Below are positions 29,339 through 33,736 of a stretch of 64,000 bases of DNA, in pieces. This stretch comes from Minwuiaceae bacterium. GTDB taxonomy: Bacteria; Pseudomonadota; Alphaproteobacteria; Minwuiales; Minwuiaceae. Both the position numbers and the translations under genes were made by a program. The DNA lies in NCBI GenBank assembly GCA_028278525.1, contig JANQEE010000069.1, positions 62,001-126,000 of the forward strand, written 5' to 3'. Numbering within the stretch: position 1 is the stretch's first letter; each line of letters starts with the position of its first letter. Below the pieces are notes generated by a model. It searched no databases, was not told where the DNA came from, and saw only the letters and a program-made list of their open reading frames with translations.

Positions 29339-30553
29339 ATGACGGCGAATATCTGCGAACGGCTTGGGGTCAGGCGATGGATCAACGCGGGCGGGTATCT
29401 GACCCGGCTGGGCGGCGCGCCGTTGGCACCCGAAGTGTTGGACGCGATGCGGGCGATAAGCCGGCAATCGGTCGACTTAAGCGAATTGCAGGCGGCGGCC
29501 AGCGCCGCGATCACGCCGCATACGGGAACGGACGCGGCGATCGTCACGTCGGGCGCGGCCGCCGCGCTGACGCTGGCGAGCGCGGCCGCCATCGCGGGGC
29601 TGGACACGGCGCGGATGGACCGGCTGCCGGACACCGCCGGCATAGCGAACGAGATCGTCATGCATCGCGGGCACCGGTCGTCCTACGACCACGCGATCCG
29701 CGCGGCCGGCACGCGGATCGTCGAATTCGGGGTCAACGACATCGGCCTGGACGCCGGCTTCCGCGGCATCGAGGCCTGGGATGCAGAGGCGACAATCACC
29801 GAGGCAACCGTCGCGTTCGCCTTCGCCGCGTCGCCGCACAATCTGCACGAACTGGAAACTGTTGCCACAGTGGCCGACCGGCACGGCCTGCCGGTGATCG
29901 TCGACGCGGCCCCATGGCTGCCGCCCGCCGAGAACCTGCGACGGTTTGCGGACGCCGGCGCGACGCTGGTCGCGTTCAGCGGCGGCAAGGCGCTGGGCGC
30001 GCCGGGCGGCACCGGCATCCTGGCAGGCCCGCACGACCTGATCGCCAGCGCGCTTTTACAGCAGACCGACATGACGACGCTGCCGGAGACCTGGCACCCG
30101 CCGGCGAGCCTGGTGCCACGCGAGAAGCTGACCGGGATGCCGCGGCATGGCATCGGGCGCGGCCTGAAGGTATCGAAGGAGGATATCGTCGGGCTGGTGG
30201 TGGCGCTGGAGCGGTTCGTCACCGCCGATCAATCCGTCGCGACGGCTGCACAGGAGGCGATGCTGGCGGATATCAGCCGCGCCCTGACGACGGTCGACGG
30301 CGTCGAGGCGACAGTGATCACTGCTAAGGAAACCGGGCGGCGGGCGCTGCTGAACCTGCGGCTCGATCAGGCGACGCTGGATCGGAGCTGCTTCGATATC
30401 AGCAACGCCCTGAAGTCCGGAACACCGCCGATCCAACTGGATGAAAGCGGAATTCGGGAAGGCGTGCTGACGGTCGATCCGGCCTGTCTCAATCTCGCCG
30501 ACGAGCCCGTGCTAATCGAACGGCTAATCGCGGTTATGACGCAGAGCCGTTAA
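29339..30553 (+). CDS. SelA/DgaE-like PLP-dependent enzyme
   Basis: The 404-aa fold-type I PLP protein resembles the selenocysteine synthase/D-glucosaminate-6-phosphate ammonia-lyase group. It has the N-terminal RRWINAGGYLTRLGGAPL, TSGAAAALTLASAAAIAG, the Asp of PVIVDAAPWLPP, and the PLP lysine in AFSGGKALGAPGG. It is not a true SelA, since no selB or tRNA-Sec is seen nearby. It probably eliminates ammonia from an amino acid or amino sugar acid. Divergent from araC; its stop overlaps the azlD stop by 4 bp. Confidence 0.82.
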   Translation: MTANICERLGVRRWINAGGYLTRLGGAPLAPEVLDAMRAISRQSVDLSELQAAASAAITPHTGTDAAIVTSGAAAALTLASAAAIAGLDTARMDRLPDTAGIANEIVMHRGHRSSYDHAIRAAGTRIVEFGVNDIGLDAGFRGIEAWDAEATITEATVAFAFAASPHNLHELETVATVADRHGLPVIVDAAPWLPPAENLRRFADAGATLVAFSGGKALGAPGGTGILAGPHDLIASALLQQTDMTTLPETWHPPASLVPREKLTGMPRHGIGRGLKVSKEDIVGLVVALERFVTADQSVATAAQEAMLADISRALTTVDGVEATVITAKETGRRALLNLRLDQATLDRSCFDISNALKSGTPPIQLDESGIREGVLTVDPACLNLADEPVLIERLIAVMTQSR

Positions 30554-30846
30554 ATGAGCGCCCGCCCAATGGCCACGACGGCAACCGCACAGCCGGCCGC
30601 GAGGAAATCGTGGCCGGTTTGGCGCATGACGACGAGCGCGACGGCGAACCCGGCGAGTTCCGGTAAACCGCCGTTGGCAAGCGCCGGGGCGAGCACGGCG
30701 CCAAGCGTGGCGATGGGTATCGATTCGAGCCAAGCTTCGATACGCGGCGTCAGCGGCACGTAGCCCATGGCGAAATAGCCGGCGGCGCGGCAGAGATAGG
30801 TAACGACCGCCATGGCGCCGAGAGCGAAGAGGAGATCCGGGCTCAT
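30550..30846 (-). CDS. azlD: AzlD-family branched-chain amino acid exporter subunit
   Basis: The 98-aa membrane protein has three hydrophobic segments and the family stretch TYLCRAAGYFAMGYVPLTPRI. AzlD is the small partner of AzlC in branched-chain amino acid efflux. Its ATG at 30846 overlaps the azlC stop (ATGA), the classical azlCD arrangement. Confidence 0.9.
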   Translation of the reverse strand: MSPDLLFALGAMAVVTYLCRAAGYFAMGYVPLTPRIEAWLESIPIATLGAVLAPALANGGLPELAGFAVALVVMRQTGHDFLAAGCAVAVVAIGRALI

Positions 30847-31529
30847 CGAGGTCTGAACGCGCCGACCAGGCTGCCAAGCAACCCGCCAGCCAGCACGCCC
30901 CACGATCCGCCGGCCAGCCAGTCGACCGCCAGCGCCGCGGCGACCGCAGTGACCAGCGGCGCGACGTCACGCCGGCCGCGCCAGAGACCGACCAGAAGCG
31001 TCACGAAGAAAGCAATCAACAGGAAGTCGAGGCCGAAGGTTTCGGGCGCGGCAATGATCCGGCCAAAGCCGCCGCCAAGCACCGTACCGATTACCCAGGA
31101 CAAATATATAATGAGGCCGCTGCCGAACAGGAAGGCGCCGTCCCACCGGCCTGACCCACCCTGTTTCACCAGCAGCGCCCAATTTGCATCGTTCATGAAA
31201 AACAAAGAGCCGTAGGCGCGAGCCGGAGACAGCCCGGCGAGGTGCGGACGCAGCATGGCACCGTACAGGACATAGCGCGCATTCATCGCGAAGGCCGCGA
31301 ACAACAGGGCGGCGAGCGGTATGGGATCGCTCCAGACCTGCAGGGCGACGAACTGGGCGGAGCCGGAAAAGACCGTCACGCTCATCGCCGTCGCAGCCTG
31401 CAAATCCAACCCTGCCTGCCCGGCCAGCACGCCAAAAGCAATGCCGTATGGCAGCACACCGGCGGTAAACGGAGCCCCGGCGACAACGCCGGTCCGCAAT
31501 CCCGACCAAATGAAAGAGATTTGGTGCAT
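30843..31529 (-). CDS. azlC: AzlC-family branched-chain amino acid exporter
   Basis: The 228-aa membrane protein has AzlC marks: GVLPYGIAFGVLAGQAGLD, AMSVTVFSGSAQFVALQ and FAAFAMNARYVLYGAML. With AzlD it exports branched-chain amino acids or analogues. It is divergent from a CGNR regulator gene, with only 33 bp between the two start codons. Two matching palindromes (31541-31556 and 31595-31610) cover both promoters, which suggests control by the CGNR protein. Confidence 0.92.
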   Translation of the reverse strand: MHQISFIWSGLRTGVVAGAPFTAGVLPYGIAFGVLAGQAGLDLQAATAMSVTVFSGSAQFVALQVWSDPIPLAALLFAAFAMNARYVLYGAMLRPHLAGLSPARAYGSLFFMNDANWALLVKQGGSGRWDGAFLFGSGLIIYLSWVIGTVLGGGFGRIIAAPETFGLDFLLIAFFVTLLVGLWRGRRDVAPLVTAVAAALAVDWLAGGSWGVLAGGLLGSLVGAFRPR

Positions 31530-31540
31530 TATCGGAAAAT

Positions 31541-31556
31541 AACCTATATGATGGTT
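31541..31556. promoter_or_regulatory. Operator-like site 1 (AACC-N8-GGTT) over the -10 of the CGNR gene
   Basis: AACCTATATGATGGTT has 4-bp inverted ends around a TATGAT -10-like element, with TTGGTG about 18 bp upstream as a possible -35. A second palindrome TTAGCTAA follows at 31555-31562. The same AACC-N8-GGTT layout recurs at 31595-31610. Confidence 0.5.
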
Positions 31557-31562
31557 AGCTAA

Positions 31563-32246
31563 TTGGAAGATAGAGCCATATTTCCTGGGGCGTCAACCAT
31601 TATAAAGGTTAGAACTATCGACGACCGAAAGCGGTCCTATGCGGACCTGCCGCCAAAGCTGCTGGGCGGTTCGCTCTGTCTCGACTACGTCAATACCGTG
31701 GAATGGCGCGGCGATCCGGAAGACCCGATGGACCGCCTGACGTCCTATCCCGAGCTGCCGAGATGGGCGGCGGCGGTGGGCACGATGAGCGGCGCCGAGG
31801 CGCGCCGGCTGGAGCGCGACGCGCGCAACCGACCGGGCGCCGCGGCGGCGATGCTGCGCGATGCGGTCGCCCTGCGCGAGGCGCTGGCGCGACTGCTGAC
31901 CCGGACCGAGTTTCGGCAAATCGAGGACCTGGCCGTGGTCAACGGCATGCTGGCGCGGGCGCCGGCACGGGCACAGATCGTCGAGGAAGAGCCGGGCTTC
32001 GCCTGGCGGTACGGGCGCGGCGGCGACGCGATGGAACAGCCGCTCTGGCCGGTGTTGTGGGATGCCGCCGACCTGCTGACCTCCGACCGGCTGGACCGGG
32101 TCAGGCGCTGCGGCGACAAACGCTGCGGTTGGCTGTTCCTGGACCTGTCGCGCAACCGCAGCCGGCGCTGGTGCGCCATGGAGACCTGCGGCAACCGCGC
32201 GAAGGCGCGGCGGCACTATGCACGGCACAAGGCCGACGACGACTAA
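31563..32246 (+). CDS. CGNR zinc-finger / ABATE-domain transcriptional regulator
   Basis: The 227-aa protein has an N-terminal ABATE domain (LLGGSLCLDYVNTVEWRG) and a C-terminal CGNR treble-clef finger. The finger is CGDKRCGWLFLDLSRNRSRR followed by WCAMETCGNRAKARRH. Such proteins are predicted DNA-binding stress regulators. The only canonical start upstream of LGG is TTG at 31563. Divergent from azlCD, with two AACC-N8-GGTT sites; regulation of amino acid efflux is likely. The near-leaderless TTG start predicts low expression. Confidence 0.85.
   Translation: MEDRAIFPGASTIIKVRTIDDRKRSYADLPPKLLGGSLCLDYVNTVEWRGDPEDPMDRLTSYPELPRWAAAVGTMSGAEARRLERDARNRPGAAAAMLRDAVALREALARLLTRTEFRQIEDLAVVNGMLARAPARAQIVEEEPGFAWRYGRGGDAMEQPLWPVLWDAADLLTSDRLDRVRRCGDKRCGWLFLDLSRNRSRRWCAMETCGNRAKARRHYARHKADDD
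31595..31610. promoter_or_regulatory. Operator-like site 2 (AACC-N8-GGTT) over a minus-strand TATAAT
   Basis: AACCATTATAAAGGTT repeats site 1 with the same 8-bp spacing, centred 54 bp away. Read on the minus strand it contains a perfect TATAAT, a good -10 for azlCD. It lies inside the first codons of the CGNR gene. Confidence 0.5.
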
Positions 32247-32258
32247 GGAGAAGTGGTT

Positions 32259-32747
32259 ATGGCCGAAGACAGACGCGCCGTCATGACCGGCGGCTGCCAA
32301 TGCGGCGCGGTACGGTATGCCGTCTTCGCGAAACCCGTCGACCCGCATATCTGCCATTGCCGGATGTGCCAGAAGGCGTTCGGCAGCTTCTTCGCGCCGC
32401 TGGCGACGGTGAAGACGGAGGATTTAGCCTGGACGCGCGGCGCGCCCGGCCTGTTCCCGAGTTCCGAGGGGGTCGAGCGCGGCTTCTGCGCCGCCTGCGG
32501 CACGCCGCTCACCTTCTGCTATGTGGGCACCGACCGGATCAGCGTCTCCATCGGCAGCCTGGACAGCCCTGCCGACATGGAACCGGCTCGCCAGTACGGG
32601 ATCGAGGCCCGCGCGCCATGGTTCGATAGGCTGGCCGCATTGCCGGCGCTTCGCACGGAAGAGGACGACGCGCCAGTGCCAGTGGAAAAGCTGAAGAGCC
32701 GGCAGCATCCGGACCACGACACCGACGCCCGGCCGGCGCGCGGCTGA
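32259..32747 (+). CDS. GFA-family (CENP-V type) zinc protein
   Basis: The 162-aa protein has the GFA zinc-binding pattern: GGCQCGAVRYAV, CHCRMCQKAFGSFF and FCAACGTPLTFCY. The family includes glutathione-dependent formaldehyde-activating enzyme, but most members are of unknown activity. ATG at 32259 is preceded by AAGGAG; the gene follows the CGNR gene by 12 bp and may be co-transcribed. Confidence 0.88.
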   Translation: MAEDRRAVMTGGCQCGAVRYAVFAKPVDPHICHCRMCQKAFGSFFAPLATVKTEDLAWTRGAPGLFPSSEGVERGFCAACGTPLTFCYVGTDRISVSIGSLDSPADMEPARQYGIEARAPWFDRLAALPALRTEEDDAPVPVEKLKSRQHPDHDTDARPARG

Positions 32748-32827
32748 CCGCCGCTTTTGTTGCCCGTTGCCCGGCGGCGGACTAGGTTTGGCCCGGGGAC
32801 AGGAAATCAACACGAGGGCAACGAGCC

Positions 32828-33736
32828 ATGGCCGGTCCGCAGTCCGGCGTTCTACCGGACGCCAACGGTTTCGCGACGTTCATCACCTACCTGGTCGAGG
32901 ATGCGGCGGCGGTACGCGCGGTCCTGCGGGACCTGCCCAGAATGACCGACGAGATCGCCGGCAGAGCGCCGGAGGCCAATTTGACCAGCGTGGCCGCCAT
33001 CGGCGCCGACGCGTGGGAACGCCTGTTCGATAATGGCCGGCCCGCGCAGTTGCGACCGTTCAAGGCGATCGAGGGCACAGGCGGGCAGGCCCCGGCGACG
33101 CCGGCCGACCTGTTCGTGCATATCCGCAGCGAACGGCGCGACCTGAACTTCGACCTGGCGCGGCGGATGGCGAGCCGGCTGGGCAACAGCGTGTCCTTGG
33201 TCGAGGAGATCGACTGCTTTCGCTATTTCGACAGCCGCGACCTGACGGGGTTCGTCGACGGCACGGAAAACCCGACGGGCGACGACCGGGCCGCGGTGGC
33301 CCTGGTCGGCGACGCGGATCCGACGTTCGCCGGCGGCAGCTATATCGCGATGCAACGCTACGTGCACGACCTGGCGGCATGGGAACGTTTAAGCGTCGCC
33401 GAGCAGGAGCAGATCATCGCCCGGACCAAGGCCGATAACGTCGAATTCAAGAGCGACGACAAGCCGCTGACATCGCACATCAAGCGGGTGTCGCTGAAAG
33501 AGGACGGCAAGTCGCTGGAGATCCTGCGCCACAGCATGCCGTACGGCACGGCGAGCGAGCACGGCCTCTATTTCGTCGCCTATTGCGACAACCCGGACAA
33601 TTTCGACAAAATGCTGGAATCGATGCTGGTCGGCGACGGCGAAGGCCATACCGACCATCTGATGAAGTATTCCCACGCGGTGACCGGCGCGAGCTTTTTC
33701 GCGCCGCCGCGCGACTGGCTGGAGAAGCTTCAATAA
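32828..33736 (+). CDS. Dyp-type haem peroxidase
   Basis: The 302-aa protein has the DyP hallmark GxxDG in LTGFVDGTENPTGDD with the distal Asp. A conserved Arg/His haem region includes YIAMQRYVHDLAAWERL, and TSHIKRVSL and RHSMPYGTASEHGLYFVAYC follow. It has no signal peptide, so it acts in the cytoplasm or as encapsulin-type cargo; no encapsulin gene is adjacent. DyP enzymes oxidise dyes or phenolics with H2O2. ATG at 32828 gives the normal class P length. A hydrolase gene follows 21 bp downstream. Confidence 0.92.
   Translation: MAGPQSGVLPDANGFATFITYLVEDAAAVRAVLRDLPRMTDEIAGRAPEANLTSVAAIGADAWERLFDNGRPAQLRPFKAIEGTGGQAPATPADLFVHIRSERRDLNFDLARRMASRLGNSVSLVEEIDCFRYFDSRDLTGFVDGTENPTGDDRAAVALVGDADPTFAGGSYIAMQRYVHDLAAWERLSVAEQEQIIARTKADNVEFKSDDKPLTSHIKRVSLKEDGKSLEILRHSMPYGTASEHGLYFVAYCDNPDNFDKMLESMLVGDGEGHTDHLMKYSHAVTGASFFAPPRDWLEKLQ

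Follow-up and report, generated by a model that had tools for sequence, protein, structure and literature searches.

GGTTA dyads as candidate operators of ABATE-CGNR regulators at a divergent azlCD locus and beside CGNR genes of distant bacteria

Described systems and the azlCD–CGNR locus

Divergent autoregulated local repressors are exemplified by the TetR–tetA system, in which the helix-turn-helix protein TetR acts through twin palindromic operators lying over both promoters and serves one neighbouring transporter; among repressors of amino-acid exporters, AzlB is of the Lrp type. In Bacillus subtilis, AzlCD is an amino-acid exporter that stays silent until the repressor AzlB is lost (PMC10882977). 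The locus described here resembles azlBCD in placing a local regulator beside an AzlCD exporter, but AzlB represses from inside the operon, whereas the present regulator is a divergently encoded ABATE-CGNR zinc-finger protein. Its only solved relative, Jann_2411 (PDB 3h0n), was described as a likely dimer with a deep interface cavity and a putatively DNA-binding zinc finger (PMC2954205). DNA binding by Jann_2411 was a proposal that came without a site, whereas here an arm sequence and its spacing are deduced for the family.

Proteins of the ABATE-CGNR type are frequent in Actinomycetota and Pseudomonadota, with 5 to 18 of them in several of the genomes examined, and their DNA target has been open since the 2009 structure, as far as the literature searched shows. 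The preliminary description of the locus had likewise taken the DNA sites of CGNR regulators to be undefined, and the searches agreed with it: full-text searches—with most subscription papers and preprints outside their coverage—returned no paper with a CGNR DNA site, those on TAACC/GGTTA yielded only papers judged unrelated by title, and no CGNR–DNA complex was present among the sequence matches in the PDB. Twin palindromes beside a divergently encoded local repressor make up a known layout, while a CGNR arm code with two spacings has not been described, as far as can be told.

The following genes and dyads were delimited in the window, i.e. the whole 64,000-nt stretch of DNA analysed:

30550–30903, minus strand: azlD (PF05437, 7.5e-15), a mechanical ORF overlapping azlC
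30843–31529, minus strand: azlC (PF03591, 5.2e-36), divergent from the CGNR gene and its putative target
31540–31557, no strand: dyad 1, TAACCTATATGATGGTTA, a perfect TAACC-N8-GGTTA, the azlC-proximal candidate operator
31563–32246, plus strand: gene of the ABATE + zf-CGNR regulator, with TTG 31563 as an uncertain candidate start
31594–31611, no strand: dyad 2, CAACCATTATAAAGGTTA, CAACC-N8-GGTTA, the CGNR-proximal candidate operator

The AzlC and AzlD domains are encoded together by overlapping ORFs, the arrangement taken to define an azlCD exporter operon; the true start of azlD probably lies further downstream than that of the mechanical ORF. The domain search of the divergent neighbour gave no Lrp-type match, the only matches being an N-terminal ABATE domain (PF07336; E 3.1e-21, 76.8 bits against a cut-off of 24.4) and a C-terminal zf-CGNR domain (PF11706; 69.3 bits against a cut-off of 24), the latter a treble-clef zinc finger with four cysteines (CGDKRC...WCAMETCGNR). 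The protein thus shares both domains with Jann_2411, the structure 3h0n being matched at 3.9e-07. Concerning the start of the gene, no common start codon other than TTG 31563 precedes the ABATE domain, no in-frame ATG, GTG or TTG being found between dyad 2 and that domain in the frame 31563–31659; if translation starts there, dyad 2 falls inside the CGNR reading frame. Most of the relatives inspected, unlike the window, have an ATG close behind dyad 2; the difference could stem from a sequencing error, from use of a rare start codon or from genuine expression starting at the TTG.

Exactly two copies of the pattern AACC-N8-GGTT are present in the window, at 31541–31556 (AACCTATATGATGGTT) and 31595–31610 (AACCATTATAAAGGTT), the two starts being 54 bp apart, as had been reported earlier for 4-base arms. 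Both sites extend to 5-base arms, dyad 1 reading TAACC-TATATGAT-GGTTA with no mismatch to the TAACC/GGTTA arms and dyad 2 reading CAACC-ATTATAAA-GGTTA with one. The form of dyad 1 is present also upstream of CGNR homologues, and the variant of dyad 2, GTCAACC-N8-GGTTA, was found again in relatives. By itself, this count carries little weight, since shuffled windows are expected to hold about 0.57 matches each and 10 of 100 contained at least two, which is what could be said for chance palindromes in an AT-rich intergenic region. The whole source genome (5.95 Mb) has 64 such sites, from which, by our arithmetic, about 0.04 pairs within 60 bp would be expected.

Arm and spacing of the dyads upstream of CGNR genes

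In a first round covering 59 loci with CGNR homologues, many were seen to carry AACC-N8-GGTT directly upstream of the CGNR gene. For the main set, 201 distinct CGNR genes were drawn from Alpha- and Gammaproteobacteria, further Pseudomonadota, Actinomycetota and a few additional taxa; upstream of these genes, every inverted 4-mer with a gap of 0–20 was counted without bias and compared with the rest of each locus. The most enriched motifs were all TAAC/AACC...GGTT/GTTA pairs: TAAC-N20-GTTA (47 sites, 0.1 expected), AACC-N8-GGTT (47 and 0.7), AACC-N18-GGTT (33 and 1.2), TAAC-N10-GTTA (29 and 0.4) and AACC-N19-GGTT (27 and 0.4), these raw figures being inflated by close kinship. All of them reduce to inverted pairs of a single arm, GGTTA, spaced at N8 or about N18–19. 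With at most one mismatch allowed in the ten bases, N8 dyads were found in 37 loci, N18 dyads in 41 and N19 dyads in 36; N0, N9 and N17 formed smaller peaks, and most other spacings had 0 to 8 loci. The two principal classes differ by 10–11 bp, that is, by one helical turn; N8/N9 is the spacing of the clade of the window protein and N17–19 that of other clades.

Kinship was limited by using 108 representatives less than 50% identical to each other, 65 of which have a dyad at N8, N9 or N17–19 with at most one mismatch, against 5 and 8 with two sets of five control spacings and a mean of 2.2 (maximum 5) after dinucleotide shuffling. Such enrichment, strong and confined to particular spacings, refutes the chance reading, the probability of which is negligible. 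A CGNR operator is accordingly defined here as inverted TAACC/GGTTA arms at N8–9 or N17–19 upstream of a CGNR gene; the dyads are often paired, about 40–54 bp apart, and the window has two at N8, upstream of its CGNR gene and 54 bp apart. The fifth base of each arm and the occurrence across the family in two spacing classes go beyond the preliminary description.

On the tree of CGNR proteins, members of one spacing class tend to group together (39 changes as compared with 92 when shuffled). In addition, Denitrobaculum possesses three CGNR genes preceded by dyads at N8 (L002), N18 (L171) and N19 (L164), and this paralogue-specific spacing in one genome is consistent with each protein recognising the site next to it. 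Tryptophan 48 and position 219 are among several positions that differ between the N8 and N17–19 proteins; no residue is claimed to set the spacing because only three independent contrasts are available in the tree. We consider it fairly probable that each CGNR finger reads one GGTTA arm and that the arms are set apart by clade-specific steps of one helical turn (N8/N9 versus N17–19), in which case operators and local targets would be predictable from sequence for very many members of the family. The ABATE-CGNR proteins would thereby turn from 'putative stress-induced regulators' into regulators with testable operators.

The N0 class (TAACCGGTTA) was not retained as a spacing of its own, being accounted for by interleaved N8 dyads in several loci (L067, L157, L160). 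The upstream regions of L067, L157, L159, L160 and L162 carry N8 dyads interleaved 8 bp apart, with a common central TAACCGGTTA-like palindrome.

No dyad with at most one mismatch was found for 43 of the 108 representatives, among them the paralogue in the window genome (L292, G000 C57:310500-316500). Ten of the loci classed as lacking a dyad still have TAAC-N20-GTTA. The CGNR loci of Rhodanobacteraceae (L006, L007, L013, L014, L016 and others) are without GGTTA dyads and have in common an upstream TGGA-N14-TCCA / GGAT-N12-ATCC, which may represent a different operator or simply reflect close relatedness. The Actinomycetota loci without a GGTTA dyad exhibited no clear alternative operator in their upstream regions.

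Association of the dyads with the regulator gene

Conservation of the two sites next to CGNR–azlCD pairs in relatives had been proposed as a check, and it was borne out: 16 of 18 divergent azlC–CGNR loci have an N8 dyad, the remaining two having none. As azlCD is the divergent neighbour in the window and in many relatives, the dyads might be operators of an azlCD-specific regulator that accompany the transporter and not CGNR. This reading is contradicted, and its probability is minimal, by a sample of 30 azlC loci in which all three with CGNR have the dyad, as against one of 27 without it, where it lies at the promoter; it is, moreover, absent from the two other azlC loci of the window genome. 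Many CGNR genes with other neighbours also have dyads, their divergent partners including alpha/beta hydrolases, EamA transporters, a flavodoxin-like protein, a short-chain dehydrogenase, a periplasmic binding protein and a BPD_transp_2 permease. The dyad therefore follows the regulator, and CGNR proteins become linked to AzlCD exporters, EamA transporters, alpha/beta hydrolases and oxidoreductases as neighbours.

The single azlC site without CGNR beside it, a perfect TAACC-N8-GGTTA at the azlC start (L283 1409-1426; G094, C60:3911-3928), may mark a distant target, since that genome has an N8-type CGNR elsewhere.

Gene-blind searches gave a concordant picture. Twin N8 dyads were found at eight places in eight of 385 Alphaproteobacteria genomes, all eight adjoining a CGNR gene—seven already in the set and the eighth (G953) new; the reversed pattern gave four chance places among the matches listed. 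Twin N18/19 dyads in 190 Pseudomonadota genomes were confined to three places, all of them CGNR promoters already in the set. A larger regulon was not upheld: in 25 genomes with an N8-type CGNR, the summed forward counts of YAACC-N8-GGTTA amounted to 62, as against 74 for the reversed control. Single N8 dyads otherwise being at background in these genomes, the control looks local. The lone perfect site elsewhere in the window genome (C57:382316), with no CGNR nearby and situated among overlapping ORFs, was dismissed as a chance match. The sequence TAACCTCATGGGTGGTTG is identical at C19:4030, C42:70577 and C55:17922 of the same genome, with one changed near-copy at C12:23614, which suggests a repeated element.

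The earlier suggestion that the CGNR/ABATE protein is the natural binder is strongly supported, on sequence grounds, by the linkage to CGNR genes and by the near absence of dyads at azlC genes without CGNR. That the ABATE-CGNR family at large would bind these sites is likewise strongly supported, because they recur beside CGNR genes in distant bacteria. An unlinked regulator controlling CGNR genes could also produce such a linkage, from which the role of CGNR as binder is deduced. This is, however, very unlikely, because the twin dyads occur only at CGNR promoters, with any divergent gene family and in several phyla, and because their spacing tracks the CGNR clade and differs even among paralogues of one genome.

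Promoter overlap and the proposed control

Three promoter elements were located between the two genes:

31567–31572, minus strand: probable azlCD -10, TATCTT, with an 18-nt spacer and 9 of 12 consensus matches
31591–31596, minus strand: probable azlCD -35, TTGACG, sharing bases with the left arm of dyad 2
31601–31606, plus strand: possible CGNR -10, TATAAA, inside the dyad 2 core

Only one sigma-70-like promoter could be found in this region, TTGACG-N18-TATCTT on the minus strand, and the window offers no good -35 for the candidate CGNR -10. The hexamers named in the preliminary description are present—TATGAT on the plus strand of site 1 and TATAAT on the minus strand of site 2—but their assignment as the -10 elements of CGNR and azlCD, respectively, is not supported, since comparison with relatives points to both the azlC -35 and the CGNR -10 in site 2. 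Among the 16 azlC–CGNR loci with an N8 dyad, 10 have TTGACx (minus strand; GTCAACC on the plus strand) in the CGNR-proximal dyad, probably as the azlC -35; the core of this dyad, likely the CGNR -10, matches plus-strand TATAAT at 4–5 of 6 bases in 10 of 16. At loci of the N19 type, a conserved TTGTCAA (-35) lies within the proximal dyad, which extends to the -10. Spanning the promoter from -35 to -10, the N19 dyads must be mostly untranscribed, and a reading of the dyads as RNA hairpins was therefore rejected.

Taken together, the dyads are, with a probability of roughly 80%, operators of the adjacent ABATE-CGNR protein, which would be a local autorepressor also controlling azlCD and released by a ligand. 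The dyad symmetry is consistent with a dimeric regulator, and we envisage a dimer held together by the ABATE domains, one CGNR zinc finger contacting each GGTTA arm. On dyad 2, such a dimer would lie over the azlCD -35 and the core of the CGNR promoter; on dyad 1, it would sit directly past the predicted azlCD start. As dyad 2 overlaps both the probable azlC -35 and the possible CGNR -10, one bound dimer would block both promoters, so that CGNR would repress itself as well as azlCD until the ligand releases it. An amino acid or an analogue is a reasonable guess for that ligand, because AzlCD exports amino acids and is silent until AzlB is lost. The layout—divergent genes, twin palindromes and a neighbouring transporter—resembles that of TetR–tetA; the putative DNA-binding module is, however, a treble-clef zinc finger as opposed to a helix-turn-helix, and the arm spacing differs by one helical turn between clades.

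It is also conceivable, albeit unlikely, that the protein binds the dyads but serves chiefly to activate azlCD in a ligand-dependent manner, the activator site being dyad 1 or dyad 2; twin dyads beside a divergent gene suit dual activator/repressor regulators too, and sequence does not tell activation from repression. The overlap of dyad 2 with the conserved TTGACx of azlC and the -10-like core of CGNR, together with the N19-type proximal dyads running from TTGTCA to the -10 region, suits repression. The dyads supply short DNA targets that can be used in ligand screens, binding assays and co-crystals.

Downstream of the regulator, in the region 32253–33736, a GFA-family gene (PF04828) lies on the same strand 6 bp after the CGNR stop codon and may be cotranscribed with CGNR; the ORF that follows it presumably encodes a Dyp-type peroxidase.
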